Below, in pieces: positions 4,479 to 32,699 of a stretch of 64,000 nucleotides of DNA. Position 1 is the stretch's first letter. Every line of letters begins with the position of its first letter. The stretch is from Geodermatophilus ruber (GTDB taxonomy: Bacteria > Actinomycetota > Actinomycetes > Mycobacteriales > Geodermatophilaceae): contig NZ_FOSW01000018.1 in assembly GCF_900114385.1 (NCBI RefSeq), positions 1-64,000 of the forward strand. The letters are read 5' to 3'. Under the pieces are notes generated by a model. That model searched no databases, had not been told where the DNA came from, and saw nothing but the letters and a program-made list of their open reading frames with translations. A program made the translations under genes and the position numbers.

Positions 4479-4497
4479 GTCGATCGGGGCAACTACT

Positions 4498-4516
4498 TCA
4501 CCGCTAAGAGAAATCC
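4498..4516 (+). promoter_or_regulatory. shared 19-bp element, carbamate kinase promoter
   Basis: TCACCGCTAAGAGAAATCC lies 16 bases before the GTG start of the carbamate kinase gene, in the AT-rich part of the gap. It matches the hyuA-promoter copy TCAGCGCTAAGGTTTTTCC at 13 of 19 positions and is the weakest of five copies in the window. It has the same orientation relative to its gene as the other four. Confidence 0.5.
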
Positions 4517-4532: not shown

Positions 4533-5483
4533 GTGACCCCCACCCGCCGCGTCGTGATCGCCCTGGGCGGCAACGCGATGACCGGACCCGACGGCTCGGC
4601 CACCCCCGGCGCCCAGCAGGACGCGATCGCCGCGGCGGCGGTCCACATCGCCGAGGTGGTGGCCACCGGCGTCGAGGTCGTGCTGACCCACGGCAACGGG
4701 CCCCAGGTGGGCAACCTGCTGGTCAAGAACGAGCTGGCCGCGCACGAGGTGCCGCCGGTCCCGCTGGACTGGTGCGTGGCGCAGACCCAGGCGACGATCG
4801 GCTTCACCGTCGCCGACGAGCTGGACGCCGCCCTGGCCGCCCGCGGCCTGCCGCAGCGCACCGCCAGCCTCATCACGCGCACCCTCGTCGACGCCGACGA
4901 CCCGCACTTCCGGGAGCCGTCCAAGCCGGTCGGCCGCTTCCTGACCCGCGAGAAGGCCGAGACGTTCCTCGCGCTCGGCCAGATCTGGGAGGACCGCGGC
5001 GAGCGCGGCTGGCGGCGGGTGGTCGCCTCCCCCGAGCCCCTGTCGGTGATCGACGCCCCGACCGTCTCCGCGCTGGCCGCGGCCGGCTTCGTCGTCGTCT
5101 GCGCCGGCGGTGGCGGCATCCCCGTGGTGGACGACGGCGAGGGCGGCGCGCTGCGCGGTGTCGAGGCGGTCATCGACAAGGACCTGACCGCCGCGCTGCT
5201 GGCGCGGGAGCTCTCCGCCGACACCCTGGTGATCGCCACGGACGTCCCGAACGTGATGGTCGACTTCGGCACCCCGTCGGCCCGGCCGCTGGGCGCGGTC
5301 ACGGCCGCGGAGCTGCGCACGCACGCCGCGGAGGGGCAGTTCGCCCGCGGCAGCATGGGCCCCAAGGTCGACGCCGCGCTGCGCTTCGTCGAAGGCGGCG
5401 GTCGGCGCGCCGTCATCACCAGCCTGGAACACATCTCCGACGCCGTCCGCGGGGACGACGTCGGCACCGTCCTGACCGCCTGA
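4533..5483 (+). CDS. arcC: carbamate kinase
   Basis: Catalyses carbamoyl phosphate + ADP to carbamate + ATP; in catabolism it captures the energy of carbamoyl phosphate. The protein has 316 residues, the usual length. It starts with [10 protein letters not shown], the N-terminal glycine-rich motif of amino acid kinases, and has [11 protein letters not shown] at about 50-60, the [12 protein letters not shown] core, and [10 protein letters not shown] for nucleotide binding. GTG at 4533 is the only start that keeps the first strand. The barbiturase-family gene begins 28 bases downstream, clearly the same transcript. There is no arginine deiminase or ornithine carbamoyltransferase gene here, so the carbamoyl phosphate probably comes from a transcarbamylase other than the arginine pathway; the FdrA/DUF1116 pair with the same promoter element is the obvious candidate. 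Confidence 0.92.
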
Positions 5484-5511
5484 TCCGACCACCCGAACCG
5501 GAAGGAATCCG

Positions 5512-6615: not shown

Positions 6616-6635
6616 GGCTCAGCCAGCTCCATCGG

Positions 6636-6687
6636 CCTCGGGGAGGTCGGGCTCCGGACGTCGTTCCGGGGCCCGGCCTCCCCGAGG
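6636..6687. terminator. bidirectional hairpin terminator
   Basis: Perfect 11-bp outer arms CCTCGGGGAGG (6636-6646) and CCTCCCCGAGG (6677-6687), with an imperfect inner stem of CCGG-rich sequence. It lies between the convergent ends of the barbiturase-family gene and the F420/NADP reductase-like gene. Confidence 0.7.
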
Positions 6688-6702
6688 TCGTCTCCGGGGC
6701 CG

Positions 6703-7332
6703 TCAGGCCATCGGGCCGACGAGCTGCCAGGCCGTCTGCCACGACCAGCCCCGGGTCGCGTTGAGGGTGATGTTCAGGAACGCCATCTCCTCCAGGGAGC
6801 GGGCGAACCGCAGGCCCTCGACGTCGAGCGGCGCGAAGCCGAGAGACCGAGCGAAATCGCCGACGACACGCCGGGCGGTCTCGTCGTCCCCGGCGATGTG
6901 CACCTGCAGCGGCCGGCCGTTCTCGCTCGGTGCGGCGTACCGGGCCGCCAGGATCGTGTTGAACGCCTTGACGACGGGCGCGCTGCCCGCCGCGCGCTGC
7001 ACCGCCTCGGCGCCGGACGTTCCCTCGATCGCCAGGTCGCTGCAGGTCTCGTCGAGGGGATTGGTGGCGTCGACGACCACGGCGCCGGCCAGGGCGGGAG
7101 CGATCTCCGCCGCCACGAACGGGGCCACGACGGCCGGCACCATCAGGACGACGAGCTCTGCGTGCTCCACCGCGACGACGTTGTTCGCGGCGGGGGTGGC
7201 GCCGATGTCATGCGCGACGGCCCGGGCACGATCCGGGCGCAGGGCCGAGAGGTGGACGTGGTGACCGGCGCGGACGGCCGCGCGGCCGAGGGCGGAGCCC
7301 GCGGTGCCGGCCCCGATGACCGCGATTCGCAT
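6703..7332 (-). CDS. NADPH-dependent F420 reductase-like NAD(P)-binding protein
   Basis: A 209-residue Rossmann protein with the dinucleotide-binding motif MRIAVIGAGTAGSALG at the very N-terminus, the conserved VVVDATNPLD strand-turn at about 88-97, and PVVKAFNT at about 120-127. These are hallmarks of the F420H2:NADP oxidoreductase-like family, members of which swap hydride between NADP and F420 or reduce small substrates. I chose the ATG at 7332 because the beta strand of the Rossmann fold starts there; an in-frame ATG at 7359 would add nine residues. The gene is single, between a terminator and the IclR gene, and its partner is unknown. Confidence 0.75.
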   Translation of the reverse strand: MRIAVIGAGTAGSALGRAAVRAGHHVHLSALRPDRARAVAHDIGATPAANNVVAVEHAELVVLMVPAVVAPFVAAEIAPALAGAVVVDATNPLDETCSDLAIEGTSGAEAVQRAAGSAPVVKAFNTILAARYAAPSENGRPLQVHIAGDDETARRVVGDFARSLGFAPLDVEGLRFARSLEEMAFLNITLNATRGWSWQTAWQLVGPMA

Positions 7333-7459
7333 GGCGCCCCCAGATGCTTGATCGCTCAAGTGATCTGTCGACGCTAGGCGGGTGGACGGGGCCCATCAAC
7401 CCCTCCCGGCGTCAGGGGCCCCTCCACCTGGCGGCCTGATCCGGACCGGGATCCATCCG

Positions 7460-8269
7460 CTACGGCCGGCCCCCCAGGTCGGCGGTGATCCGGTTCGCCG
7501 TCTCCACCAGCAGCGGCACCACCTCTCGCTGCAACTGCCCGCTGCTGGAGCGGCCGGCCGAGGTCGACGACGCCAGCGCCGCGACGACCTGCCCCGTCCG
7601 GTCACGCACGGGGGCCGCGGCCGACAGCAACCCGACCTCGAGCTCCTCGGCCACGATCGACCAGCCCTGCTCGCGGACGCGGGCGAGTTCGGCCCGCAGC
7701 GCCGAGGCGTCGGTCACCGTCCTGGGAGTGATGGGCCGCAGCGGCCGGCGGTTGAGCGCCGAGTCGACGACGTCCCTCGGCGCCCAGGCCAGGAGCACCC
7801 GGCCCATCGAGGTGGCGTACGCAGGCACCCGCGTGCCGACCGAGACGTTGATGCTCATGATCCGGCGCACCGGCACGCGGGCGACGTAGACGGCCTCGTC
7901 GCCGTCCAGCGTCGCCAGCGAGGCCGACTCGTGCGTCTCCTCCGCCAGGCGTAGCAGGTGCGGCTGGGCCAGCTCGATGAGCGCGTGCGAGGCCGTGTAG
8001 TGCTGGCCGATCGCGAGCACGCGGGGGGTCAGCGACCAGCGGCCCCCGGAGCCGCGCACGTACCCCATCCGCTCCAGCGTGATCAGGAAGCGCCGCACCG
8101 CCGGGCGGGAGAAGCCGGTGATCTGCGCCAGCTCGGCCAGCGTCGGCTCGGGATGCTCCTCGTCGAAGGCGAGCAGGACGGCGATCCCACGCTCCAGGCT
8201 CTGCACGTAATCGCGGTCGACCTGGGGGGACGCGCCGGTGGAGACGTCTGCGATGACCATCGGCCTCAT
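7460..8269 (-). CDS. IclR-family regulator of the aromatic cluster
   Basis: A 269-residue IclR-type transcription factor. The N-terminal winged helix-turn-helix is at about 20-85 (TLAELAQITGFSRPAVRRFLITLERMGYV), followed by the effector-binding domain with SINVSVGTRVPAYATSMGRVLLA and the C-terminal AAPVRDRTGQVVAAL motif. This is the PcaR/PobR/CatR subgroup, which responds to aromatic ring-cleavage intermediates. It is divergent from the phenol hydroxylase-catechol operon across a 137-base gap, so it most likely controls that operon and perhaps itself. A second ATG three codons in (8260) has GAGG in front of it and may be the true start. The inducer could be cis,cis-muconate or a phenol; the sequence does not decide. 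Confidence 0.88.
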   Translation of the reverse strand: MRPMVIADVSTGASPQVDRDYVQSLERGIAVLLAFDEEHPEPTLAELAQITGFSRPAVRRFLITLERMGYVRGSGGRWSLTPRVLAIGQHYTASHALIELAQPHLLRLAEETHESASLATLDGDEAVYVARVPVRRIMSINVSVGTRVPAYATSMGRVLLAWAPRDVVDSALNRRPLRPITPRTVTDASALRAELARVREQGWSIVAEELEVGLLSAAAPVRDRTGQVVAALASSTSAGRSSSGQLQREVVPLLVETANRITADLGGRP

Positions 8270-8339
8270 CTTCCTGCACCGGAGGGGTTGACGTGCCGGG
8301 TGACGCGCAGCACACTGCCTGCACGCGCTGCGGTCAGAT

Positions 8340-8356
8340 TGTACGCATAGCGGGCA
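8340..8356. promoter_or_regulatory. candidate IclR operator
   Basis: TGTACGCATAGCGGGCA is an imperfect 17-bp dyad (TG..CGC-ATA-GCG..CA, 5 of 7 arm pairs) in the gap between the divergent IclR and flavin reductase genes. Its position fits an operator, but the assignment is by position and symmetry only. Confidence 0.3.
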
Positions 8357-8406
8357 CGACAGGAACCAGCAGGCACGGCCGGCGAGCTCGACGAGGAGAT
8401 CCCCCG

Positions 8407-8979
8407 ATGCTCGATTCCCGCACGATCCGCACCGCCTTCGGGCGCTTCGCGACCGGCGTCACCGTGGTCACCTGCGCCAAGGACGACGGTCTGCCCCACG
8501 GGGCCACCGTCAACGCCTTCACCGCCGTCTCCCTCGAACCGGCTCTGTGCCAGGTGACGCTCACCCGGCAGTCGAAGGCCTGCGGCTACCTGGAGGACGC
8601 GCCGTTCGCGGTCAACGTCCTGTCCTCGGCGCAGCTCGACACGGCGTGGCACTTCGCGGGCCGGCCGCAGTCCCGGGAGCCGGAATGGGCCGAGGGCCCC
8701 ACCGCCCCCGTTCTCGTGGGCAATGCGGCGACCATCTCGTGCCGGCCGTGGCGCACCTACGACGGTGGCGACCACCTGATCGTCATCGGCGAGGTCGTCG
8801 ACCTGCAGGTCGGCGACGAGGATCCCCTGGTCTTCTTCAGCGGCCGCTTCCGCGAGCTGGCCGCCCCGGCGACCGGCGTCCACTGGGCCGGGTCCATGGA
8901 CTGCCCGGAACTGGGCTGGTTCGACGCCTCGACCACCTTCACGGCGCTCCACGCCCACAAGCACCGCGCCGCCTCCTGA
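8407..8979 (+). CDS. pheA2: flavin reductase component of a two-component phenol hydroxylase
   Basis: A 190-residue flavin reductase of the HpaC/TftC/PheA2 type, which supplies FADH2 to the oxygenase encoded next. The flavin-binding segment is visible: [12 protein letters not shown] at about 10-21, [15 protein letters not shown] at about 30-44, and QSKACGYL and PFAVNVLSS after it. ATG at 8407 follows AGGAG at a normal distance. It begins the rightward aromatic operon, 62 bases before the monooxygenase gene. The gene symbol is by analogy with the Rhodococcus phenol hydroxylase system. Confidence 0.85.
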
Positions 8980-9041
8980 AGCTCGGCACGGCCCCTGCAC
9001 CACAGCAGCACCCGACTCCACCGCCGAAGAAGGGTTCCCCT

Positions 9042-10646
9042 GTGACACTGGAGAAAGAGCAAGAAGTCGTCGGCCCGCGCACGACGGCCGAGGGCGCGCC
9101 CGATCCCGATGCCCCCACCGCCACCCGGCCCATGACCGGGGACGAGTACATCGAGAGCCTCCGCGACGACCGCGAGGTCTGGATCTACGGCGAGCGGGTC
9201 GAGGACGTCACCACGCACCCGGCCTTCCGCAACCCGATCCGCATGACCGCGCGGCTCTACGACTCGATGCACGACCCCGCTGTCCAGGACAAGGTGACGA
9301 CGCCGACCGACACCGGTACCGGCGGCGTCACCCACCCGTTCTTCCGCGCGCCGCACTCGGTGGAGGACATGGTCCGCGACCGGGACGCCATCGCGACCTG
9401 GGCCCGGATGTCCTACGGCTGGATGGGCCGGGCCCCCGACTACAAGGCCGCGTTCCTCGGCACCCTGGGCGCGAACAGCGAGTTCTACGCGCCCTACGAG
9501 GCCAATGCGAAGCGCTGGTACAAGGAGTCGCAGGAGAAGGTCCTCTACTGGAACCACGCGATCATCAACCCTCCGGTGGACCGCAATCTCCCGCCGGACG
9601 AGGTCGGCGACGTCTTCATGAAGGTGGAGAAGGAGACCGATGCGGGGCTGATCGTGTCCGGGGCCAAGGTCGTGGCCACCGGTTCGGCGATCACCAACTA
9701 CAACTTCATCGCCCACTACGGACTCCCGATCAAGAAGAAGGAGTACTCGCTGATCTGCACGGTGCCGATGGACGCACCGGGCGTGAAGCTGATCTGCCGG
9801 GCCTCGTACAGCCAGCAGGCCGCGGTGATGGGCAGCCCGTTCGACTACCCGCTGTCGAGCCGGATGGACGAGAACGACACGATCTTCGTCTTCGACAAGG
9901 TCCTGGTGCCGTGGGAGAACGTCTTCCTCTACGGCGACGTCGAGAAGATCAACGGGTTCTTCCCCGCGTCCGGGTTCCTCCCCCGCTTCACGCTGCACGG
10001 CTGCACCCGCCTCGCGGTCAAGCTCGACTTCATCGCGGGCCTGCTGCTCAAGGCGCTGGAGATCACCGGCAGCAAGGACTTCCGCGGCGTGCAGACCCGG
10101 GTCGGTGAGGTCATCGGCTGGCGGAACGTCTTCTGGGCGCTGAGCGACGCGATGATCCACAACCCCGACGAGTGGGTCGGCGGCACCATGCTGCCCAAGC
10201 TCGACTACGGCCTGACCTATCGGATGTTCATGATCCAGGGCTATCCGCGGGTGAAGGAGATCATCGAGTCCGACGTGGCCAGCGGGCTGATCTACCTGAA
10301 CTCGCACTCCCTGGACTTCAAGACCCCCGAGGTCCGGCCCTACCTGGACAAGTACGTCCGCGGCTCCAACGGCGTCGAGGCCGTCGACCGGGTCAAGCTC
10401 ATGAAGGCCCTCTGGGACTCGGTCGGCACCGAGTTCGGCGGCCGGCACGAGCTGTACGAGCGCAACTACTCGGGCAACCACGAGGGCGTGAGGGCCGAAC
10501 TGCTCTTCGCCGCCGAGGCCCAGGGCACCACCGGCGCCATGAAGGGCCTGGCCGAGCAGTGCCTCTCCGAGTACGACCTCGACGGCTGGACGGTGCCCGA
10601 CCTCATCGGCAACGACGACGTCTCGTACTTCCGCAACCGCCGCTGA
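9042..10646 (+). CDS. pheA1: FADH2-dependent phenol 2-monooxygenase, HpaB family
   Basis: A 534-residue flavin-dependent aromatic hydroxylase of the HpaB/TftD/PheA1 family, expected to ortho-hydroxylate phenol to catechol with FADH2 from the upstream reductase. Family landmarks include [23 protein letters not shown] at the start of the conserved domain (residues about 37-60), an R[14 protein letters not shown] segment at about 125-145, and the [15 protein letters not shown] segment at about 207-221. GTG at 9042 follows GAAGAAGGG. Length and setting match the Rhodococcus two-component phenol hydroxylase. 4-hydroxyphenylacetate or chlorophenols are alternatives, but the downstream genes (catechol dioxygenase, catB, catC) argue for a simple phenol that yields catechol. 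Confidence 0.82.
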
Positions 10647-11537
<891 letters not shown>

Positions 11538-11549
11538 CCGACCGTCCTG

Positions 11550-11585
11550 CTGCGGCCTCCGGTCCCCAGCGACCGGAGGCCGCAG
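11550..11585. terminator. hairpin between catA and the P450 gene
   Basis: Perfect 15-bp arms CTGCGGCCTCCGGTC (11550-11564) and GACCGGAGGCCGCAG (11571-11585) around a six-base loop, starting 12 bases after the catA stop codon. It could end or attenuate the phenol-catechol transcript before gcoA. Confidence 0.65.
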
Positions 11586-11661
11586 CCTGCACGGGGGCCG
11601 ACGGCCCCACCACCCCCCACCCCAGCGGCAACGACGCCGACGTACGAGGAGCAACCCCTAC

Positions 11662-12885
11662 GTGACCGCAGTGACCGAGACGCCCGCCTGGATCGCCGAG
11701 ATCACCATGGCCGAGCTCGAGAAGAACCCCTACCCGTTCTACGAGCGGCTGCGCCGGGAGGCCCCGGTGGCCTTCGTCCCCGCGCTCGGCCTCCACATCG
11801 CCTCGACGAGGGCGGCCTGCCAGGAGATCGGGTCGCAGAGCGACATCTGGGACGGCGTGATCAGCCCGGCCGGCGGCCGCACCTTCGGCCACCCCAACGT
11901 GCTCAACGCCAACGGCCCCGAGCACGACGAGCTCCGCGGGATGGTGGACCCGGCCCTGCAGCCCAGCGAGGTCGACCGCTACGTCGACAAGCTGGTGCGC
12001 CCCATCGCCAAGCGGTACGTGGAGGCCTTCGAGAACGACGGGCACGCCGACCTGGTGGCCCAGTTCTGCGAGCCGGTGAGCGTCCGCGCCCTGGGCGACC
12101 TCATGGGCCTGCAGTCGGTCAGCTCGGACAAGCTCCGCGAGTGGTTCCACAAGCTGAACGTCTCGTTCACCAACGCGGCGGTCGACGAGAACGGCGAGTT
12201 CGCCAACCCCGACGGGTTCATCCCCGGTGACGAGGCGCGCGCCGAGATCCGGGCGGTGCTCGACCCGCTCCTGGACAAGTGGACCGTCGAGCCGGACGAC
12301 AGCGCCCTGTCCCACTGGCTGCACGACGGCATGCCCGAGGGCCAGACGCGGGACCGGGAGAAGATCTACCCGACCGTCTTCGTCTTCCTGCTCGGTGCCA
12401 TGCAGGAGCCTGGGCACGCGATGGCATCGACCATCGCCGGCCTGTGGAGCCGCCCCGAGCAGTTCGAGCGCGTCGTCGACGACCCCAAGCTGATCCGCCG
12501 GGCGATCACCGAGAGCCTGCGCTGGACCTCCCCCATCTGGTCGGCCGTGGCCCGGGTCAACAAGGTCGACACCACCGTGGCCGGCACCTTCCTGCCGGCC
12601 GGCTCGGTCGTGATGCTGTCCTACGGCTCGGCCAACCACGACGGGAACGCCTACGACGCGCCGTCGGACTACGACCTCGACCGCGCGCCCGTCCCGCACA
12701 TGGCCTTCGGCGCCGGCAAGCACGGCTGTGCCGGGACCTACTTCGCCAGCGAGGTGTGCCGGATCGGGCTCGAGGAGCTCTTCGAGACCATCCCCAACCT
12801 CGAGCGGGACGAGACGAAGGGGATCGACTTCTGGGGCTGGGGCTTCCGCGGGCCGGTCGAGCTGCACGCGAACTGGGAGGTCTGA
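11662..12885 (+). CDS. gcoA: guaiacol O-demethylase, cytochrome P450 (CYP255A type)
   Basis: A 407-residue P450 predicted to demethylate guaiacol to catechol and formaldehyde. Length and numbering line up with GcoA of Amycolatopsis as I remember it: the three substrate-caging phenylalanines fall at the same positions, F75 (GGRTFGHP), F169 (LNVSFT) and F395 (WGWGFRGP), and V241, G245, I292 and A295 are also kept. Position 296 is Val where GcoA has Thr, and 81 is Leu where it has Ile. The heme ligand is in [10 protein letters not shown], and ESLR is the ExxR motif. The I helix reads GAMQEPGH instead of the usual acid-threonine pair, a feature of this subfamily. GTG at 11662; the reductase gene follows 6 bases later. 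Confidence 0.88.
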
Positions 12886-12891
12886 GCTGAC

Positions 12892-13941: not shown

Positions 13942-13966
13942 ACCCCGGACGAGAGGCACTCTCCCG

Positions 13967-14182
13967 ATGCACACCCCGATGGCCCCGTACCGCCCGCCGG
14001 CCGACCGCGCGGCGTTCAACCGGCACTGCGGGCAGGTCCACCTGCCGCTGGCGCAGAAGCTCCCCGGCGTGCGGGCCGCGCACCACAGCCTGGACGCGGC
14101 CGGCGAGGCGGCCGGGGCCGACATCCCGAACTTCGCGACGAGCGGCCTGGAGATCCTGCACTTCCCGGCCCGCGCGTCCTGA
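13967..14182 (+). CDS. EthD-type protein with apparent internal deletion
   Basis: A 71-residue reading frame between gcoB and catB. Its first half, YRPPADRAAFNRHCGQVHLP followed by LAQKLPG, is a good EthD-family N-terminus, and its last part, AAGADIPNFATSGLEILHF, resembles the C-terminal end of the same family. The middle that normally links them, about 30-35 residues with the conserved beta strands, is missing, and the frame is kept. It may be a broken gene still in frame or a real minimal variant. EthD proteins form small dimeric ferredoxin-like folds and often accompany P450 or dioxygenase systems without a settled reaction. The ATG is preceded by GAGAGG. Confidence 0.5.
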   Translation: MHTPMAPYRPPADRAAFNRHCGQVHLPLAQKLPGVRAAHHSLDAAGEAAGADIPNFATSGLEILHFPARAS

Positions 14183-14210
14183 CCTCGACTCCCCGGACAG
14201 AGGCAATCCC

Positions 14211-15332
14211 ATGAGCGACCTGCACATCGAACGAGTCCAGACCGCGATCCTGGACGTCCCCCTCCGGCGACCGCACCGGTTCGCGCGCACCGGCATGGAC
14301 GCCCAGCCCCTCCTGCTGGTCACGCTCACCACCCGGGGCGGCGTCCGGGGCGTGGGCGAGGGCGTCGTGCCCGGCGGACCCTGGTGGGGCGGCGAATCGG
14401 TCGAGACGATGCAGGTCGTCATCGAGCGGTACATCGCACCGCTGCTGATCGGCCGTCGCGTCGACGACATCGCCGGCATCCAACAGGCCGTCGACGACGT
14501 CGTCGCCGCCAACCTCTACGCGAAGGCCGCTGTCGAGGTGGCCCTGCACGACGCCTGGGCCCGCAGCCTCGGCGTTCCGGTGCACACGCTGCTCGGCGGC
14601 CTGGCCCGCACGTCGATACCGGTGACGTGGGCGCTGGGCACCGAGTCGGCGGCCGAGGTCATCGACGAGGCGCAGGGAAAGCTGGACGCCGGGTTGCACT
14701 CGAGCTTCAAGCTCAAGATGGGCGCCCAGGACCCTGCGGACGACGTCGCGCGGATCGTCGAGGTGGCCGAGAAGCTGTCGTGCAACGCCAGCATCCGGGT
14801 CGACATCAACGCCCGCTGGGACCTCATCACCTCGCTGCGCTGGCTGCCCCGCCTGGCCGAGGCGGGGGTCGATCTCATCGAGCAGCCGGTGCCGGGCGCC
14901 GAGGTCGAGTGGCTGGCCGAGATCAACGCGGCGCTGCCGATCCCGGTCATGGCCGACGAGAGCCTCCGGACACCGTCGGACGCACTGCGGCTGGTCAAGC
15001 TGCGCGCCGCCGACGTCTTCTCGCTCAAGACGACCAAGTCCGGCGGCCTCCGCTACACCCGCCAGATCGCCGACGTCGCCGCGGCCGCCGGCATCCCCTG
15101 CCACGGCGGCACCGCGATCGAGGGGCCGATCGGCACGGTCGCGTCCCTGCACCTGGCCTGCTCGACCCCGGCGGTCAGCTACGGCAGCGAGCTGTTCGGC
15201 CCGCTGCTCATGCGGGAGGAGTTGCTGACCGGGCCACTGCGCTACGCCGACGGCTCTCTGCACCTGCCCGAGGGCCCGGGCCTCGGCGTCGAGCTCGACC
15301 CTGCCGCCGTCGCCCGATTCACCCGAGCCTGA
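14211..15332 (+). CDS. catB: muconate cycloisomerase
   Basis: Converts cis,cis-muconate to muconolactone, the second step after catechol cleavage. This is an enolase-superfamily protein of 373 residues. The catalytic Lys pair is K167-x-K169 (SFKLKMG), and the metal ligands are D198 (RVDINARWD), E224 (LIEQPVPG) and D249 (MADES); these residue numbers coincide with those I recall for the Pseudomonas enzyme. A second catalytic lysine sits in VFSLKTTKSGG. ATG at 14211 follows GAGGCAA. Its neighbour catC supports the muconate (not chloromuconate) assignment. Confidence 0.9.
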   Translation: MSDLHIERVQTAILDVPLRRPHRFARTGMDAQPLLLVTLTTRGGVRGVGEGVVPGGPWWGGESVETMQVVIERYIAPLLIGRRVDDIAGIQQAVDDVVAANLYAKAAVEVALHDAWARSLGVPVHTLLGGLARTSIPVTWALGTESAAEVIDEAQGKLDAGLHSSFKLKMGAQDPADDVARIVEVAEKLSCNASIRVDINARWDLITSLRWLPRLAEAGVDLIEQPVPGAEVEWLAEINAALPIPVMADESLRTPSDALRLVKLRAADVFSLKTTKSGGLRYTRQIADVAAAAGIPCHGGTAIEGPIGTVASLHLACSTPAVSYGSELFGPLLMREELLTGPLRYADGSLHLPEGPGLGVELDPAAVARFTRA

Positions 15333-15351
15333 CCTGCGAAGGAGCTCCAGC

Positions 15352-15639
15352 ATGCTGTTCCACGTCCGCATGGACGTCGCCGTCCCCCGCGACCTCGACC
15401 CCGACGAGCGCACCACCCTGCTGGCCACGGAGAAGGCGCGTGCGCTGGAGTTGCAGCGCAGCGGCAAGTGGGTGCACCTGTGGCGGGTGGTGGGCAGGTA
15501 CAGCAACGTGAGCATCTTCGACGTCGACAGCGGCGACGAGCTCCACGAGATCCTCTGGAGCCTGCCTCTGTTCCCGTTCATGACGATCGCGGTCACGCCG
15601 CTGACCGAGCACCCGTCGGCGCTGTCGGCCAACCCGTGA
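15352..15639 (+). CDS. catC: muconolactone delta-isomerase
   Basis: A 95-residue protein of the muconolactone isomerase family, which forms a ring-shaped oligomer of ferredoxin-like subunits and turns muconolactone into beta-ketoadipate enol-lactone. MLFHVRMDVAVPRDLD at the N-terminus, the central LQRSGKWVHLWRVVGRYSNVSIFDVDS (given here only as a family landmark at about 35-61), and the LPLFPFMTIAVTPLTEHPSA C-terminus are all typical. GGAGCTCC precedes the ATG. Its stop codon overlaps the GTG start of the next gene. Confidence 0.92.
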   Translation: MLFHVRMDVAVPRDLDPDERTTLLATEKARALELQRSGKWVHLWRVVGRYSNVSIFDVDSGDELHEILWSLPLFPFMTIAVTPLTEHPSALSANP

Positions 15640-16130
15640 ATGCGGTCGAGGAGCGGCTGCGGCGCCTCGAGGACACCGAGCAGATCCGGACCCTCGATGC
15701 CGTCTACTGCCGGCTGCTCGACGACGGGAACTGGCCGGCGCTGGTGTCGCTGTTCACCCCGGACGGAACGTTCGACGGCCTGTCGGTGGTCACGGGCCGG
15801 GACGCGCTGCTCGCCTTCTTCAGCAGCCTGGCCGACAGCGGGCTGACCGCGTTCTGGCACCACGTGTCCAACCTGGAGATCGCCGTCGACGGCGACATCG
15901 CCCACGTCGGTTCCCTGCTGTGGCAGCCCTGCGTCGTCGACGGCGTCCCCCATGTGGCCGCCGGCCGCTACGCCGATCGCCTGGTGCGCACCGACGACGG
16001 CTGGCGCTACTCGGTCAAGCAGGTGCGCTTCTTCTACTGGGCCCCCCTGGCGCAGGGGTGGGACCACCACCGGTTCACCCTCGAGTCGGCCCGCAACGCC
16101 GCCACCACCCCGTCGAGAGGACTCGCATGA
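15636..16130 (+). CDS. SnoaL-like (NTF2-fold) protein in the catechol operon
   Basis: A 164-residue protein with a SnoaL/NTF2-like cone fold: an N-terminal helix (VEERLRRLEDTEQIRTLDAVY), then the pattern DDGNWPALVSLFTPDGTFDG, and strand-rich VDGDIAHVGSLLWQ to the end. Such proteins are isomerases, dehydratases or ring-hydroxylating dioxygenase beta subunits, so the reaction is unknown. The GTG start overlaps the catC stop (GTGA) and its own stop overlaps the pcaD start (ATGA). This means tight translational coupling and a role in the same pathway. No alpha subunit of a dioxygenase is adjacent. Confidence 0.7.
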   Translation: MNAVEERLRRLEDTEQIRTLDAVYCRLLDDGNWPALVSLFTPDGTFDGLSVVTGRDALLAFFSSLADSGLTAFWHHVSNLEIAVDGDIAHVGSLLWQPCVVDGVPHVAAGRYADRLVRTDDGWRYSVKQVRFFYWAPLAQGWDHHRFTLESARNAATTPSRGLA

Positions 16131-16894
16131 CCACCGCCCGCCTGCACGCCGTCGAGGACGGTCCCGCCGACGGCCCCGTGCTGGTGCTCGGCCCGTCGCT
16201 GGGCACCGACACCGGACTGTTCGACGCCCAGGTCGCCGAGTTCGCCGGCACGCATCGGGTGATCCGCTACGACCTGCGCGGGCACGGCGGCTCGGAGGTG
16301 GTGGCGGGCACGTGCACGATGGCCGACCTGGCGCGCGACGTGCTCGCGCTGCTCGACGGCCTCGGCGTCGAGCGGTTCTCCTACGCCGGGGTGTCGATCG
16401 GCGGGGCGATCGGCCAGCAGCTCGCGCTGACCGTGCCCGAGCGGCTGGAGAAGCTGGCGATCATCGCCTCCGCGGCCCAGTTCGCCGACCCGCCCTCCTG
16501 GCCGGTGCGGGCCCGGCAGGTGCGCGAGCAGGGCACCGAGATCCTCGTGCCGTCGCGCACCGGTACCTGGTTCACCGAGGAGTGGGCGGCGGAGAACCCG
16601 AAGGCGGCCGAGCGGCTGCTCCAGATGCTGCGCGACACCCCGGCCGAGGGCTACGCCGCCTGCTGCGAGGCGATCGGCACCTTCGACGTCCGAGACCGGC
16701 TGGGCGGGATCTCCACGCCGACGCTCGCGATCGCCGGCGCCGAGGACCCGGCGACGCCGCCGGACATGGTGCGACTCATCGCCGAGGGGATCGACGGCGC
16801 GGAGTTCGTCGTCGTCCCGGGGGCGGCGCACCTGCCCAACGCCACCGATCCGGAGACCGTCAACGCTGCCCTGCGCCGGCACCTCGGGAGCTGA
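16127..16894 (+). CDS. pcaD: 3-oxoadipate enol-lactonase
   Basis: Hydrolyses beta-ketoadipate enol-lactone to beta-ketoadipate, the last step of the catechol branch found in this window. It is a 255-residue alpha/beta hydrolase. The oxyanion region is VLGPSLGTDTGLFDAQV (about 18-34), the nucleophile Ser is in GVSIGG (about 90), and the catalytic His is in PGAAHLPN (about 232). The protein lacks the PcaC decarboxylase extension seen in some actinobacteria. The genes for the next steps (CoA transfer and thiolysis) are not in the window. Confidence 0.85.
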   Translation: MTTARLHAVEDGPADGPVLVLGPSLGTDTGLFDAQVAEFAGTHRVIRYDLRGHGGSEVVAGTCTMADLARDVLALLDGLGVERFSYAGVSIGGAIGQQLALTVPERLEKLAIIASAAQFADPPSWPVRARQVREQGTEILVPSRTGTWFTEEWAAENPKAAERLLQMLRDTPAEGYAACCEAIGTFDVRDRLGGISTPTLAIAGAEDPATPPDMVRLIAEGIDGAEFVVVPGAAHLPNATDPETVNAALRRHLGS

Positions 16895-16913
16895 GCACGC
16901 CCCTCGTCGGGGG

Positions 16914-17516
16914 TCAGCGGGAGTAGTACTCCACGACGAGCTGCTCCTCGCAGATCACCGGGACCTCGTCGCGGGACGGCGTCCGCTCGACCCGGGCCGT
17001 CAGGTCGGCCAGGCGCACGGTCAGGTAGGCCGGGGCATCGGCGTGCGCGCCTGAGGCGGCGACGACGAACGGCTCCTTGCTGCGGGACTTGTCGGCGACC
17101 TGCACGAAGTCACCGGGCTGCAGCCGGTAGGAGGGGCGGTCGACCCGCTTGCCGTTGACCAGCACGTGCTGGTGGACGACGAACTGGCGGGCCTGGTAGA
17201 TCGTGCGCGCGAACCCCGCGCGCAGCACCGTGGCGTCCAGCCGGGACTCGAGGTCCTGGATCAGCGCCTCGCCGGTCTTGCCCCCGGAGCGCCTGGCCCG
17301 GTCGAAGGCGGCCCGGAGCTGGGTCTCGCTGATGTCGTACTGCGCCCGCAGCCGCTGCTTCTCCCGCAGCCGGGTGGAGTAGTCGCTGACCTGGCGCCGC
17401 TTGCGGCCGTGCTCCCCCGGCGGGTACGGCCGGCGCTCGAAGTACGGGACGGATTTCGGCGTGAGTGGGATGCCGAGCGCGCGGCTCAGCCGGACCTTGG
17501 GACGTGATGTGTTCAT
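16914..17516 (-). CDS. rpsD: 30S ribosomal protein S4
   Basis: Primary rRNA-binding protein of the small subunit body, 200 residues. The S4 N-terminal domain begins SRPKVRLSRALGIPLTPKS and has the conserved FERRPYPPGEHGRKRR. The S4 RNA-binding domain covers about 95-160 (LDATVLRAGFARTIYQARQ), and the C-terminus is the conserved EEQLVVEYYSR. It lacks the Cys-rich zinc motif of other S4 forms. The N-terminus is like the stand-alone S4 of Streptomyces rather than the Mycobacterium form. I took the ATG at 17516; the frame is open upstream but the family begins here. An iron-box-like site overlaps its promoter region. Whether it is the only S4 in this genome cannot be seen. Confidence 0.9.
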   Translation of the reverse strand: MNTSRPKVRLSRALGIPLTPKSVPYFERRPYPPGEHGRKRRQVSDYSTRLREKQRLRAQYDISETQLRAAFDRARRSGGKTGEALIQDLESRLDATVLRAGFARTIYQARQFVVHQHVLVNGKRVDRPSYRLQPGDFVQVADKSRSKEPFVVAASGAHADAPAYLTVRLADLTARVERTPSRDEVPVICEEQLVVEYYSR

Positions 17517-17528
17517 GCCACTTTCAAG

Positions 17529-17547
17529 TGTAGTTAGGCTCACCTTA
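17529..17547 (-). promoter_or_regulatory. iron-box-like (DtxR/IdeR/DmdR) site upstream of rpsD
   Basis: TGTAGTTAGGCTCACCTTA agrees with the actinobacterial iron-box consensus TTAGGTTAGGCTCACCTAA at 14 of 19 positions, including the whole core GTTAGGCTCACCT. On the minus strand it is followed by a possible -10 box TACACT and then by the ATG 12 bases beyond the site, so a bound repressor would cover the promoter. It does not look like the Zur box (TGAAAATGATTTTCA type). Confidence 0.5.
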
Positions 17548-17618
17548 TTTCCTGCTCCACCCTCTTCGACGCCGTCGCCACCCTGCTGGCCTGCGGCTGC
17601 TGACGGTCGGCGGCGGGG

Positions 17619-19238
17619 TCAGGCCGAGCGCGCGCTCTCCACCCGCGGCGCACCGGCGGGGCCGGTGTCGGCGAGCCGGGTCGTCGGCAGCTGCCGGGTG
17701 AGGAACAGGCTCAGCAGCGCGATCGCCGCCGCGGCCAGCAGCGCCACCTTCAGCCCCTCCAGCTGCGCCTGGGCGTAGGTGTCCAGCAGGGCGCCCACCT
17801 CGGACGGCGAGATGCCCGCCCGCTCGAGGGCGGCCCGCGCCTGGTCGACCGGGACGAAGCCGACGCCGCCGCTGATCGCGACGCCCACCTCCTGCTGCAC
17901 GGCGTCGGAGATCGCCGGGTTGTCGGTGATCCCGCGCTCGGCCGAGACGGTCAGGGCGCCGATGAGGACCGAGCCGATGAACGCCGTCCCGAGGGAGGAC
18001 CCGAGGTTCTGCGCGGTGTACTGCAACCCGCCCACCTCGCTGCGCTCGGCCTCCCCGACGCTGGACTGCGCCACGTTGCCGAGCTGGGCGGCCAGCAGCC
18101 CCATCCCGATGCCCAGCAGCGCCATGGCGGCGGCGAAGGAGGCGTCGTCGAGCTCCGGGTCGATGGCCGACACCAACCACACCGTCGCGAGGACCAGCAG
18201 AGCGAACCCGGCGCGGACGACGGAGCGCGGCGCGGCGACCCGGTTGAGCAGCGGTGCGCTCATCGCGGTGACCAGCATCAGGACCGAGACGGGTAGCAGC
18301 CGCAGGCCGGTCTCGAAGGCGTTCAGCCCCTGCACCACCTGCAGGTAGAGCGGAACGGTGAAGAACACCCCGAGCAGGATCAGGTTCTGGGCGAGCAGCG
18401 TGGTGACGGCGGCGCGCAGCGGCGGGATGTCGAACAGGCTCCAGTGCAGCAGCGGGTCCTGCCCCCGCTCCTCCCGCCGCCGCAGCCAGCCGCGGAGCAG
18501 GCCGAGCGTGGCCAGCCCCGCCGCGATCACGAACGGCGTCGGGGAGAACCCGAGGACCGTGAACGGTGCCTCGCGGGGCCGCAGCCACCCCCACTCGGTG
18601 CTCTGCAGCACGCCGAGGACGACGAGGGTCAGCCCGACGACGGAGAGCACGCCGCCCACGACGTCCAGGCGCACGCGGGGGCCGGTCACCGGCGCGTCGT
18701 CGACCCAGCGGAGGACGGCGAGGATGCACAGGACCACGACCACCTCGCCGGCGAACACCAGCCGCCAGGTGAGGTTCGTGGTCACCCAGCCGCCGAGCAG
18801 CGGCCCGACCGCGATACCGGCGCCGGCCAGGCCACCGATGACGCCGTAGGCCATCGCCCGGTCCCGCCCCGCGTAGTTCCCGCCGACCAGGGCGGCCAGC
18901 GCGGGCAGGACCAGCGCCGCCCCGAGCCCCTCGATGATCGACCAGCCGAGGACGAGCACCCCCAGCGTCGGGGCGAGGGAGGTCAGCAGCGAGCCCACGC
19001 CGTAGATCACGAGCCCCACCGCGAAGGCGCGCCGGCGCCCGATCAGGTCGGCCACCTTGCCGCCGAGCAGCATGAAGGCCGCCATCACCAGCGTGTAGAT
19101 GGTGATGACGGCCTGGATGGCGGTCACCGTGGTGTCGAAGTCCTCGACCAGCTGGCTGATCGACACGTTCATGACCGAGGTGTCGAGCACCATGAGGAAC
19201 TGGGCCGTCCCCAGGGCCACGAGAGGCTTCGCTCTCAC
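17619..19238 (-). CDS. DHA2-family (EmrB/QacA) MFS drug exporter
   Basis: A 539-residue proton-coupled exporter of the 14-helix DHA2 group. The first helix reads PLVALGTAQFLMVLDTSVMN with the family's LD-S-MN motif (about 4-23). The loop motif GGKVADLIGRRR is at about 60-71, and the motif C-like GPLLGGWVTT is near 145. A long extracellular loop before the last helix contains an extra helical stretch, and the C-terminus is cytoplasmic and short. The start is GTG at 19238; no better start with a clear ribosome site is visible. It is the only member of its transcript. The substrate cannot be inferred. Confidence 0.85.
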   Translation of the reverse strand: MRAKPLVALGTAQFLMVLDTSVMNVSISQLVEDFDTTVTAIQAVITIYTLVMAAFMLLGGKVADLIGRRRAFAVGLVIYGVGSLLTSLAPTLGVLVLGWSIIEGLGAALVLPALAALVGGNYAGRDRAMAYGVIGGLAGAGIAVGPLLGGWVTTNLTWRLVFAGEVVVVLCILAVLRWVDDAPVTGPRVRLDVVGGVLSVVGLTLVVLGVLQSTEWGWLRPREAPFTVLGFSPTPFVIAAGLATLGLLRGWLRRREERGQDPLLHWSLFDIPPLRAAVTTLLAQNLILLGVFFTVPLYLQVVQGLNAFETGLRLLPVSVLMLVTAMSAPLLNRVAAPRSVVRAGFALLVLATVWLVSAIDPELDDASFAAAMALLGIGMGLLAAQLGNVAQSSVGEAERSEVGGLQYTAQNLGSSLGTAFIGSVLIGALTVSAERGITDNPAISDAVQQEVGVAISGGVGFVPVDQARAALERAGISPSEVGALLDTYAQAQLEGLKVALLAAAAIALLSLFLTRQLPTTRLADTGPAGAPRVESARSA

Positions 19239-19318
19239 GGCCCCGACCGTGACACCGCCGGGCGCCGGGCACCTCGTCCGCCCGGGGCGATCCGCTCGTC
19301 CACCCCGCCCTGAACCGC

Positions 19319-19377
19319 CGAGATCGCGCGATCTCGCACGGATCCGGCGGGGACACGTGCGAGATCGCGCGATCTCG
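19319..19377. repeat. inverted pair of nested palindromes
   Basis: Two identical perfect 18-bp palindromes, CGAGATCGCGCGATCTCG, lie at 19319-19336 and 19360-19377. They extend into an inverted repeat whose outer arms are 19319-19340 and 19356-19377. The block sits in the 158-base gap between the DUF1116 gene end and the MFS start, both leftward. It could fold as one long cruciform or two short ones. A terminator role or an interspersed palindromic repeat are the simplest readings. Confidence 0.7.
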
Positions 19378-19396
19378 ACAGGAATGGAGCCCGGCG

Positions 19397-20818
19397 TCAG
19401 GCCGCGGCGCGGGACTCCTCGGCCAGCGCGGCCAGCGCCTTCTCGAAGCACTCCTGCGGCGGCTGGACCAGCCCGGCACCGACCTGCCCGGTGCCGGCGA
19501 CGCGGCCGGCCATGCCGGTGTTGATCTGCGGCAGCCAGCCGGTGCGGGCCACCTTGAGCACGTCGATGCCGGTGGGCGAGCCGCGGAAGCCGAGGATCGG
19601 CACCTGCATCGCCGGGTTCTCGGCGAGGGTGAGCTGGTACATCCGCTCGGTGGTGGCCAGCGCGTCGGGCACGGAGCCGCCGACGAAGCGGACGATCGCC
19701 GGGGCCGCGGCCATGGTGAACCCGCCGACACCGTAGGTCTCCATGATCGCGGAGTCGCCGATGTCGGGGTTGGCGTCCTCGGGGCCGTAGTCGCCGAGGA
19801 AGAGGCCGACCGGGGTGTTCGCCGGGCCGGTGAACCAGCGGTCGCCGGTGCCGGCGGTCTGGATGCCGAACTCGGTGCCGTTGCGGGACATGACGGTGAC
19901 CATCGAGGAGCCGGGGACGTCGCGGGCGGCGTCCATGGCCAGCTTCGCCGTCGGCATCCCGAGGTTGAGGAAGAAGTGCTCGTTGCCGCCGATGAACTTC
20001 AGCACCGCGGCGATGTCGGACGCCGGGGCGTCGACCTCGACGATCGCCGGCGAGAGCTCGCGCAGGGTCATCAGCGAACCGGCGCGGTTGCGGTTGTGCC
20101 CCTCGTCGCCCATCTGCAGCATCTGCGCGAGCACGGCCTTGACGTCCAGCGGGTCGGCGCCGGCGTCGATCGGGTCGCGGACGGCCCGCGACAGGATCGG
20201 GCCGAGCACGTCGCGCATCCAGGCCAGGCGGGTGAGGACCTCCTCGTTGTAGGCCCCCATCCGCAGCACCTTGCCCAGGCCCTCGTTGAGGTTGCAGAAC
20301 GCCCGCCCCCCGTTCACCGGGTCGGACAGGCACCACATCCACATCGACGGGCTGGTGACGCCGGCCATCGGGCCGACGGTGCGGTGGTGGTGACAGGGGT
20401 CGAGGGTGATCTCGCCCGCGGCGAGGATCTTCTCGGCCTCCTCCACCGTGGACGCCCAGCCCTCGAACAGGCAGGCGCCGATCAGCGCGCCGCGCATCGG
20501 GCCCGAGGCCATGTCCCAGGTCAGCGGCGGGCCCGAGTGCAGCAGCGTGCGGTCGGGCAGGCCGAGCACCTCGCGCGCCGGCCGGACGTCGACCAGCTGC
20601 GACCCGGCGGCCATCAGCCGTTCGACCGCGGTGCGGTTGGCCACGGCCCGCCGCGGGTCGAGGGCCAGCGCGGCCAGATCGGCCGGGTCGCCGAAGCCCG
20701 GCGGGCGCCAGTCGACGTCGGTCACGTCGGCACCCTGGGCGCGCAGCGCGTCGGAGAAGACGTCGACACCGGCGGCGACGATCGCCGGCGGGGCGGACAG
20801 GAGCTGTCCCAGACTCAT
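19397..20818 (-). CDS. DUF1116 protein (YlbE/YahG/AllG family), candidate transcarbamylase subunit
   Basis: A 473-residue protein of the DUF1116 family. Landmarks are RTLLHSGPPLTWDMASGPMRGALIGA at about 110-135 (glycine-rich, likely phosphate or nucleotide site), DPCHHHRTVGPMAGVTSPSM, the NEGLGKVLRMGAY segment, and the conserved QMGDEGHNRNRAGS. In E. coli the family member YlbE works with FdrA and YlbF (as I recall, now named AllG, AllF and AllH) as oxamate carbamoyltransferase. Its start overlaps the stop of the FdrA gene (ATGA), so the two are made together. I see no DUF2877/YlbF gene nearby, so the third E. coli subunit is absent here, encoded elsewhere, or replaced. Confidence 0.85.
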   Translation of the reverse strand: MSLGQLLSAPPAIVAAGVDVFSDALRAQGADVTDVDWRPPGFGDPADLAALALDPRRAVANRTAVERLMAAGSQLVDVRPAREVLGLPDRTLLHSGPPLTWDMASGPMRGALIGACLFEGWASTVEEAEKILAAGEITLDPCHHHRTVGPMAGVTSPSMWMWCLSDPVNGGRAFCNLNEGLGKVLRMGAYNEEVLTRLAWMRDVLGPILSRAVRDPIDAGADPLDVKAVLAQMLQMGDEGHNRNRAGSLMTLRELSPAIVEVDAPASDIAAVLKFIGGNEHFFLNLGMPTAKLAMDAARDVPGSSMVTVMSRNGTEFGIQTAGTGDRWFTGPANTPVGLFLGDYGPEDANPDIGDSAIMETYGVGGFTMAAAPAIVRFVGGSVPDALATTERMYQLTLAENPAMQVPILGFRGSPTGIDVLKVARTGWLPQINTGMAGRVAGTGQVGAGLVQPPQECFEKALAALAEESRAAA

Positions 20819-22320
20819 CGCGCGGCTCCCAGCAGGTCGAGGGCGTGCCGCGTGGCCGCGGCGTTGGAGGAGAAGACGGCGGCGCCGGCGGCGGCGAGGG
20901 CGTCGGCCTGCCGGCTCCAGCCCTGCGGGTCGCCCTCGGTGCCGACCAGCGCGATCACCACCGGCAGCGGGGTGGCCGACGTCTCCCGTGCGGCGATCAA
21001 CGCCGGCACGAGCGAGCCGGCGGGGTCGGCGTCCGCCCCGTGGCCGAGGACGACGTCCATGAGCAGCACCGCGGGCTCGCCGCTCGCGGCGACCCCGGCG
21101 AGGGCCTCGAGCCGCAGCGTGGGGTCGATCATCGGGTGCGCCCGCCCGACGGTGAGCGCGTCGTCCCCGAAGTCGATGACGACGTGACCCGTGGCGGACA
21201 GGTCCGTCCCGAGGTCGAGGCCGGGCTCCAGCGGGGTGTTGGACCGGATGCCGCCGAGCACCGGGGCGGCGAGGAGCATCGCCTCGTCGGCGAGGGTGCC
21301 CCCGGAGTACAGGCCCTTGAGGACGGCGCCCGGCGCGGCGGTCGTGCCGTCGCCGGGCCGGGCCGGCCACTCCGGCACCGCGGCGCCCATGTCGGCCAGC
21401 AGCGCCTCGACGGCGGCGGTGAGGTCGGGGGTCTCGGGCGAGAGGGCCGCCGAGCGCACCGGCACCGCGAGCTTCCCGGCGGCCTCCTCCACGGCGGCGG
21501 CCACGGACGGCGCCGGCGGCTTGGAGACCAGCAGCACCCGCTCGGTGGCCGGGTCGGCGTCCAGGGCGGCGAGCGCGTCGAGCGTGGCGAGCCCGCCGAC
21601 GGCCTCGGACAGGTCCCGACCGCCGACACCCAGCACGTGGCTGACGCCGACGCCGGCCATGTCGAGCAGGCAGGAGACCTGCTGCGCGCCGGTGCCGGAG
21701 GCGGCGACCAGACCGACCGCCCCCGGCCGGACGACATTGGCGAAGCCCAGCGCGACGCCGGAGACGATCGCGGTGCCGCAGTCCGGGCCCATGACGAGGA
21801 CGCCGGCGTCGTGCGCCGCCCGCTTCAGCGCGACCTCGTGCTCGACCGGCACGCCGTCGGAGAAGACCAGCACGCTGCGCCCGGCGGCGATCGCGTCGGC
21901 GGCCTCGGCGACGGCGTACTGCCCGGGCACGCTGACGATGGCCAACGCGGAACCGTCGGTCGGGAGGGCGTCGAGCCCGGCGGCGACGGTGCGCGCGGGA
22001 ATGGCGTCGGCCGTGCCGGTGGAGCGCTCGCGGGCGGCCAGGGCGGCGTCGACGGCGGTGACCGCGGCGGCCAGCACGTCCTCGTCGGCCGCCTTGATGG
22101 CGATGAGCAGCTGGTCCGGGGAGGGCTCGCCGTCGGGCGCCAGGCCCATGCCCGCGGCCAGTTCGAGGTTGAGCGGGGTGGCCATGGCGACCAGTACGGC
22201 GGAGACGCCGTCGCGGGCGCCGATGTCGCGGCTGACCTGCATCAGCTTGACCGAGTCGGCGTAGACGCCACTGCGGAGGGAGACGTGCCGGGCTCCGGCA
22301 CCGGGGGGAGGGGCGCTCAC
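20815..22320 (-). CDS. fdrA: FdrA-family protein (succinyl-CoA synthetase-like), candidate carbamoyltransferase subunit
   Basis: A 501-residue FdrA protein with succinyl-CoA-synthetase-like domains. The N-terminal part has SLRSGVYADSVKLMQVSRDI. A CoA-binding-like Rossmann domain has VLVMGPDCGTAIVSGVALGFANVV at about 180-205 and GAVGLVAASGTGAQQVSCLLD at about 210-230. A ligase-like half ends with HVVIDFGDDALTVGRAHPMIDPTLR. The family was tied to FtsH and later to oxamate carbamoyltransferase in allantoin breakdown in E. coli. The GTG start lies 18 bases from the shared 19-bp element, and the gene is divergent from the permease. In this setting I infer phosphorolysis of an N-carbamoyl amide to carbamoyl phosphate, feeding the carbamate kinase 16 kb away. 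Confidence 0.85.
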   Translation of the reverse strand: MSAPPPGAGARHVSLRSGVYADSVKLMQVSRDIGARDGVSAVLVAMATPLNLELAAGMGLAPDGEPSPDQLLIAIKAADEDVLAAAVTAVDAALAARERSTGTADAIPARTVAAGLDALPTDGSALAIVSVPGQYAVAEAADAIAAGRSVLVFSDGVPVEHEVALKRAAHDAGVLVMGPDCGTAIVSGVALGFANVVRPGAVGLVAASGTGAQQVSCLLDMAGVGVSHVLGVGGRDLSEAVGGLATLDALAALDADPATERVLLVSKPPAPSVAAAVEEAAGKLAVPVRSAALSPETPDLTAAVEALLADMGAAVPEWPARPGDGTTAAPGAVLKGLYSGGTLADEAMLLAAPVLGGIRSNTPLEPGLDLGTDLSATGHVVIDFGDDALTVGRAHPMIDPTLRLEALAGVAASGEPAVLLMDVVLGHGADADPAGSLVPALIAARETSATPLPVVIALVGTEGDPQGWSRQADALAAAGAAVFSSNAAATRHALDLLGAAR

Positions 22321-22337
22321 CCCGATGACCGTACCCG

Positions 22338-22356: not shown

Positions 22357-22376
22357 GACATCACTGCAATAACGAT

Positions 22377-25222: not shown

Positions 25223-25259
25223 GTGCGGGCACCGGACGCGCCGCGCGGAGCGACCCGCC

Positions 25260-32698: not shown

Positions 32699-32699
32699 C

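Follow-up and report, generated by a model that had tools for sequence, protein, structure and literature searches.

What becomes of ureidomalonate in an actinobacterium that opens the barbiturate ring? Uracil is broken down by the reductive, Rut, URC and oxidative routes, and we know of none that recovers ATP from the ureido bond. The barbiturase and ureidomalonase of the published oxidative pathway came from Rhodococcus erythropolis; to our knowledge, ureidomalonase and uracil/thymine dehydrogenase are activities that lack sequences. The question is raised by a 64,000-nucleotide stretch of Geodermatophilus ruber DNA (contig NZ_FOSW01000018.1, positions 1 to 64,000; hereafter the window), which holds a carbamate kinase (CK) gene beside a gene of the barbiturase family and, on the opposite strand, genes for FdrA (AllF) and AllG, two subunits of an AllFGH-type transcarbamylase. 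In the published pathway, barbiturase and ureidomalonase yield malonate and urea (PMC3758960). A preliminary description of the window predicted an energy-conserving route instead, in which the transcarbamylase would split ureidomalonate with phosphate and CK would make ATP. As a genome-based prediction this route is well supported: by the type of the barbiturase, by gene clusters in distant actinobacteria, by co-occurrence in 38 of 39 genomes and by an AllH gene for the third subunit elsewhere in the genome. By analogy with the known reaction, phosphorolysis of ureidomalonate is probably the main role of the complex, and the step would stand in for the hydrolytic ureidomalonase.

Oxalurate is HOOC-CO-NH-CO-NH2, and ureidomalonate is HOOC-CH2-CO-NH-CO-NH2. 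AllFGH cuts oxalurate with phosphate, and the same cut on ureidomalonate, a predicted substrate one CH2 longer, would give malonamate and carbamoyl phosphate. AllFGH is described as an oxamic transcarbamylase (oxalurate + phosphate <-> oxamate + carbamoyl phosphate) whose full activity needs all three genes (PMC11326118). The E. coli allantoin system, AllFGH with AllK, consists of the same three families plus a CK as the set studied here (PMC11326118, PMC9843812), and in both the substrate would be an N-carbamoyl amide of a short dicarboxylate. The enteric bacteria that have AllFGH are urease-negative and reach the ureido nitrogen solely through this complex (PMC11326118); an analogous reason may apply here.

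The host genome is of Geodermatophilaceae type, with the nearest named loci by barbiturase in Blastococcus, Geodermatophilus, Klenkia and Modestobacter. Its assembly comprises 4,990,455 bases in 32 contigs, the window set lying on contig C27, and gene models in the window were settled by codon-position gene calls. A search of the open-access literature returned no paper naming both barbiturase and carbamate kinase.

Enzyme families in the window and in the genome

The CK and barbiturase genes are consecutive on the plus strand, and the AllG and FdrA frames, which overlap by 4 bases, lie on the minus strand, divergent from an NCS2 permease. All four are open frames. The preliminary description had assigned the ring-opening enzyme to the barbiturase family, and the scores bear this out: the window's AtzD-family protein reaches 649.5 bits against PDB 5hwe, entitled 'Barbiturase', and at most 346.3 bits against the six other solved sequences that it matched. 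It is 81% identical to a protein of R. erythropolis (locus L148), which matches 5hwe across all 369 residues with 805.7 bits. These comparisons support an enzyme of the barbiturase type, with barbiturase as its predicted activity.

A cyanuric acid route would be chemically analogous: ring opening would give 1-carboxybiuret, and phosphorolysis would give allophanate and carbamoyl phosphate. The window enzyme does pass the NCBIfam cut-off for cyanuric acid hydrolase (479 vs 360 bits). Since a barbiturase-type protein exceeds that cut-off, the model does not discriminate between the two activities, and the bit score to barbiturase is nearly twice that to any solved cyanuric acid hydrolase. The cyanuric acid hydrolases AtzD and TrzD belong to the same family (PF09663) at about half the bit score, and no triazine genes were found among the Pfam-scanned neighbours. 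Moreover, the permease and the molybdenum (Mo) hydroxylase of the window fit a pyrimidine, and carboxybiuret decomposes spontaneously (PMC3758960). We rejected cyanuric acid as the substrate on the scores and regard this route as scarcely plausible.

The CK falls under the cut-off of the arcC model and passes that of its subfamily (Table 1); it is 43% identical to E. coli YahI and 40% to E. coli AllK (ybcF). FdrA scores below the cut-off of its own subfamily model (433 bits) and is thus a divergent member. By profile matches, members of the AllG, AllF/FdrA and AllH families are all present in the genome. The third subunit (YlbF/AllH), which the preliminary description had reported as missing from the window, is indeed not in these 64 kb; a search of the genome for PF11392 found it once, on a separate contig (C23:100653, 93.7 bits). 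There it adjoins a divergent PucR gene. All 12 Geodermatophilaceae genomes retrieved likewise pair AllH with a divergent relative of PucR, and in one of them (L193) a permease follows that PucR. The two genes are also divergent neighbours in several clusters of Nocardioidaceae type, there within the pathway cluster itself. Because the same pairing occurs inside and outside clusters, AllH-PucR may well be a fragment of this cluster that has moved elsewhere. In the AllH tree, 28 rows from barbiturase-bearing genomes are set apart, with weak support, from E. coli AllH and YahE.

Does the window pair simply serve the reaction demonstrated for its family, on oxalurate (PMC11326118), with the proximity of barbiturase incidental? 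The genome holds five AllG genes and three substantial FdrA genes, among them a separate FdrA-AllG pair on contig C16. The C16 pair scores better for FdrA (621 vs 393 bits), and in the tree its AllG joins that of E. coli (100/99). Window AllG lies outside that group, and we accordingly class the window set as another subfamily. Barbiturase-bearing genomes contribute one AllG copy each to a single clade (28 rows, 100/99), apart both from E. coli AllG and from paralogues in the same genomes. The C27 pair is also tied to barbiturase by the promoter element, by cluster and by co-occurrence, as set out below. We therefore consider an oxalurate transcarbamylase at this locus very unlikely. Window AllG further differs from the E. 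coli system in its links to barbiturase, the Mo hydroxylase and the NCS2 permease, and where the three actinobacterial genes are adjacent they run AllH-FdrA-AllG, an order shared with E. coli yahEFG, instead of F-G-H.

The uncharacterised E. coli locus yahEFG-yahI-yahJ (L231) has the same families, arranged H-F-G, and adds a CK-like gene and an amidohydrolase. YahG, however, falls in a different AllG branch, and 14 control genomes gave no PF09663 match. AllFGH and a CK are also found in a nitrogen-compound catabolic cluster of nitrifier metagenome-assembled genomes (MAGs), where allFGH-allK lies beside triuret/allophanate genes; the cluster is read there as oxalurate degradation, and the accessible parts of that report carry no mention of barbiturase (PMC12625717).

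The remaining AllG genes of the genome have other neighbours. Contig C8 carries two divergent AllG/DUF1116 paralogues, each beside a glutamine-synthetase-like gene (L035:8622-11275, L036:547-3243), and no FdrA match; this may be another use of DUF1116 proteins. On contig C17 (L037:9949-16109, L205) the fifth AllG occurs with two argininosuccinate-lyase-like genes of the lyase family, a PLP enzyme and DUF7714. A CK-FdrA pair lies about 9 kb away, and the group has the look of a biosynthetic cluster based on carbamoyl chemistry.

A promoter element shared across the window

What links the two core gene pairs, which lie on opposite strands? The preliminary description, which covered positions 4533..22320, had placed the FdrA/YlbE-family pair and the CK/barbiturase operon under a common promoter element, and this holds: the sites at 4488 and 22337, both on the minus strand, are identical at 16 of 22 positions. 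Another copy, at 22375 on the plus strand, faces the permease, and one at 37284 on the plus strand precedes the Mo hydroxylase operon; a near-palindromic variant at 49691 precedes hyuA. These three fall outside those coordinates.

We searched the 4.99-Mb assembly with a 20-base consensus built from the four window sites, allowing up to three mismatches. It gave four exact matches, all in the window and exact by construction, none with one or two mismatches and 17 with three; a reversed-consensus control gave seven with three mismatches allowed. The informative results are that no other near site exists in the genome and that the element is conserved in relatives, which confirms that it is beyond chance.

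Conservation was scored (cut at a score of at least 14) in 40 barbiturase loci and 12 AllH loci, which are close kin and not independent. The element precedes CK in 33 of 38 loci, in 32 of the 33 placed between -41 and -48 relative to the estimated start, and fails in the other five; it precedes the permease in 24 of 26. Control upstream regions seldom or never reached the cut (PHP 0/36, S4 0/17, AllG 0/30, CoxL 0/11, AtzD 1/40). The copy facing FdrA is weaker, reaching the same cut in 11 of 27 relatives, and many of the others have a TCTCACCGCTGAG-like variant. HyuA has the element in the one relative locus that could be examined. It precedes CoxM in 4 of 21 relatives, and in many others CoxM comes immediately after the permease.

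In the window, the leader of CoxM (37274-37475) still resembles that of the permease (22365-22545), ribosome site and first codons included, with a local score of 57 against at most 25 in 300 shuffles. Two of 300 random window pieces reached 57, the higher of them (338) presumably being the leader itself. The one leader looks like a diverged duplicate of the other, coding start included. Permease and Mo hydroxylase may therefore once have formed a single operon, into which the genes now at 23987-36825 were inserted.

Could the element be a general nitrogen control whose target genes do not form one pathway? Its consensus comes from four sites, which leaves some room for such a reading. However, a general control is hard to reconcile with the lack of any further site with one or two mismatches in 4.99 Mb, and actinobacteria without the element cluster the same genes. 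We give this explanation almost no credence.

Genomes with and without the transcarbamylase

We surveyed 296 genomes of the same phylum for PF09663 and AllG. PF09663 was present in 18, AllG in 36 and both in 14 (expected 2.2; p 2.6e-11); with the own genome set aside, 13 of 17 PF09663 genomes have AllG. Those 14 are exactly the genomes with a barbiturase-like PF09663 protein (68-80% identical to the window's, or the window's own), and the proteins of the other four are distant (36-43%).

Among 536 confirmed barbiturase relatives we kept 80 named loci for neighbourhood comparison, and 75 of these have CK beside barbiturase. Genomes behind 40 of the 80 loci were selected for an AllG and AllH search, and 39 were searched: AllG was found in 35 and AllH in 36. 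All 34 genomes that have CK next to barbiturase also have AllG, against one of the five others (Fisher p 6e-5, uncorrected for kinship), so that AllG and the barbiturase-linked CK are present or missing together in 38 of 39. The exception is Arachnia (L151), which lacks the adjacent CK; its AllG is about 17 kb from barbiturase, and a CK adjoins its second AllFGH set. In 14 of the 15 AllG-bearing genomes outside Geodermatophilaceae, AllG and barbiturase share a contig at a distance of 7-36 kb; in L157 they are on different contigs. These distances come from the locus itself in L139 and otherwise from match coordinates, with contigs paired by length or by the amidase position.

Clustering was also evident from the side of AllG. 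Barbiturase, CK, AllH, FdrA and AllG occur together within 20 kb in 6 of 20 AllG-centred regions from the phylum (L051, L055, L056, L060, L061, L068); the barbiturase of L051 is cut by the region end, and further regions of the 20 are cut by contig ends. The L056 cluster also holds a Mo hydroxylase, CoxG, an amidase, an NCS2 permease, a PAS/response-regulator pair and PucR. Loci of Nocardioides, Knoellia, Janibacter and the like run from AllG-FdrA-AllH through a divergent PucR, a permease, CoxMSLG and an amidase or CN-hydrolase to HyuA-HyuB, with CK-barbiturase further on. Two unrelated amide hydrolase families in one slot would fit hydrolysis of malonamate. Orthologues of the amidase Amid144 are found in all 21 Geodermatophilaceae genomes behind the loci (55-61%), in the own genome (57%, C22:531163) and, at 66-76%, in those cluster-bearing Nocardioidaceae-type genomes that have one. 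Maturation genes of the CoxD/CoxE/XdhC type lie near barbiturase in L135, L139, L151 and L155.

How do genomes without AllG manage? In R. erythropolis (L148), R. fascians (L154) and Rhodococcus sp. (L141), barbiturase has no CK as a neighbour, and a genome search for two of the transcarbamylase subunits, AllG and AllH, found neither. In each of the three an amidase directly follows barbiturase. Its orthologues (at least 79% identical) are confined to these three among 45 genomes, the next best match being a 52% paralogue in R. erythropolis itself. This amidase is the obvious candidate for the hydrolytic ureidomalonase. R. erythropolis thus resembles the window set in its barbiturase and in having the same type of Mo hydroxylase, a permease and HyuA nearby, and differs from it in lacking AllG, AllH and a barbiturase-adjacent CK and in its amidase.

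Several observations weigh against assigning the complex to ureidomalonate. Three of the four AllG-less genomes belong to one genus. In the survey, PF09663 is missing from 22 of the 36 genomes with AllG, and the sister clade of the barbiturase-linked AllG is represented in five of those 22, so a near kin of the complex works without barbiturase and must have another job or another source of substrate. L064 has barbiturase, AllH, FdrA and AllG but no CK match in its 20 kb. The own-genome orthologue of Amid144 stands alone. The many AllG and FdrA copies of this genome make paralogue confusion possible, although they are resolved in the tree. Support for the AllH grouping is weak (83/91, with long branches), and the C16 FdrA-AllG pair could be AllH's partner; none of the 12 relatives' AllH genes is preceded by the element, so what ties AllH to the set is its adjacency to PucR and its phylogeny. 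More distant loci lack the element altogether (upstreams of eight genes in 59 loci, including six Geodermatophilaceae MAGs; CK 0/44). Finally, Modestobacter muralis (L135, L197, L243) has no AllG in the genome and no CK beside barbiturase, and keeps barbiturase, the Mo hydroxylase, HyuAB, AllH and an Amid144 orthologue, the last about 1.5 kb beyond HyuB within the pathway cluster. This gene set implies either another fate of ureidomalonate there or a broken pathway: M. muralis has jointly lost a functional unit, or its AllH has another job and its ureidomalonate another fate.

Separately, two of the genomes with no PF09663 match (L054, L062) have sister-clade FdrA-AllG pairs that adjoin a permease of the same family.

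M. muralis, which keeps barbiturase without AllG, also counts in favour of an alternative in which the regulon supplies AllFG(H) and CK with a different carbamoyl compound, for example a methylated analogue derived from thymine via 5-methylbarbiturate or a product of HyuAB, while some amidase hydrolyses ureidomalonate. HyuAB is conserved in the clusters without an assigned step, and amidases occur in both kinds of cluster. However, HyuA stays in the pathway clusters of M. muralis (L135) and R. erythropolis (L148), where AllG and the adjacent CK are missing, so HyuA is independent of them. CK stands beside barbiturase at nearly all named loci and is missing together with AllG in four genomes, and the barbiturase-adjacent amidase of Rhodococcus has no close orthologue where AllG is present. 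We regard this alternative as unlikely and retain ureidomalonate as the probable substrate.

The predicted route from uracil to malonate

The set of genes bearing the element, predicted to be co-regulated, is wider than first noted, and the Mo hydroxylase, permease and HyuAB point to a whole uracil pathway. Each catalytic step on a named substrate is a prediction from the gene families and their grouping. The NCS2 permease would take up uracil, and the Mo hydroxylase (37472-42001) would convert it to barbiturate, which barbiturase would open to ureidomalonate. AllF-AllG of the window, with AllH from contig C23, would then convert ureidomalonate and phosphate to malonamate and carbamoyl phosphate. 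CK would turn the latter into ATP, CO2 and NH3, and an amidase, here perhaps the Amid144 orthologue at C22:531163, would hydrolyse malonamate to malonate and NH3.

Table 1. Genes and element copies of the predicted pathway, in window coordinates.
Feature	Position	Strand	Evidence
Carbamate kinase (CK), 316 aa	4533..5483	+	NF009007 317 bits (cut-off 266); TIGR00746 346.3 (cut-off 358.25)
Barbiturase (AtzD/barbiturase family), 367 aa	5512..6615	+	PF09663; PDB 5hwe 649.5 bits
AllG / DUF1116 transcarbamylase subunit, 473 aa	19397..20818	-	PF06545 312 bits (cut-off 27); clade 100/99
FdrA / AllF subunit, 501 aa, GTG start at 22320	20815..22320	-	NF004760 391 bits; PDB 3dmy FdrA 244 bits
NCS2 nucleobase permease, uracil/RutG-like, 485 aa	22506..23963	+	RutG model 380 bits (cut-off 759); ncs2 superfamily 296 (cut-off 292)
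Mo hydroxylase FAD subunit (CoxM-like), 292 aa	37472..38350	+	Gene call; tblastn to L056 subunit (PF00941)
Mo hydroxylase [2Fe-2S] subunit (CoxS-like), 172 aa	38347..38865	+	Gene call; tblastn to L056 subunit
Mo hydroxylase large subunit (CoxL-like), 808 aa, candidate uracil hydroxylase	38862..41288	+	68% to L056 protein
CoxG-like protein	41285..42001	+	PF06240
HyuA, hydantoinase/oxoprolinase family	49713..51791	+	7hk5 N-methylhydantoinase 491 bits
HyuB	51788..53659	+	PF02538
Element before carbamate kinase, TCTTAnCGnTGAnGnAnTTnCC class	4488..4509	-	33/38 relatives' loci
Element facing FdrA-AllG	22337..22358	-	11/27 relatives at cut
Element facing permease	22375..22396	+	24/26 relatives
Element before Mo hydroxylase operon	37284..37305	+	Leader resembles permease leader incl. 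first codons
Near-palindromic element variant, abutting hyuA start codon	49691..49712	.	Window sequence

The permease scores best with the RutG model, yet stays under that model's cut-off. Three subunits of the xanthine oxidase family are present, as judged by Pfam on the L056 homologues, tblastn for the window subunits and phmmer for the window large subunit, whose best solved match is quinoline 2-oxidoreductase (1t3q, 463 bits). We lean towards the full pathway with the Mo hydroxylase as its uracil dehydrogenase. With similarly guarded confidence, we propose an unrecognised actinobacterial oxidative pathway for uracil, in which the Mo hydroxylase would be the missing uracil dehydrogenase, a ureidomalonate-specific AllFGH subfamily would save the carbamoyl bond as ATP, and the hydrolytic amidase of Rhodococcus would be the missing ureidomalonase gene. 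HyuAB, conserved in the clusters, may belong to a thymine branch.

If this reading is true, AllFGH would gain a second substrate for a family whose one demonstrated role is in allantoin breakdown in E. coli, and both uracil/thymine dehydrogenase and ureidomalonase would have candidate genes. The predicted nitrogen product in these actinobacteria would also change from urea to ammonia plus ATP.

In locus L208, a distant AtzD homologue (41%) lies beside Mo hydroxylase subunits and an amidase.

The genes between the two core pairs of the window (6703-19220: an oxidoreductase, IclR, an aromatic operon, an S4 protein and an MFS protein) were rejected as members of the pathway. Positions 8407-16894 were set aside as an aromatic ring-cleavage operon, which encodes a flavin reductase, an HpaB-type monooxygenase, catechol 1,2-dioxygenase, a P450 with its own reductase, muconate cycloisomerase, muconolactone isomerase, a SnoaL-like protein and a hydrolase.

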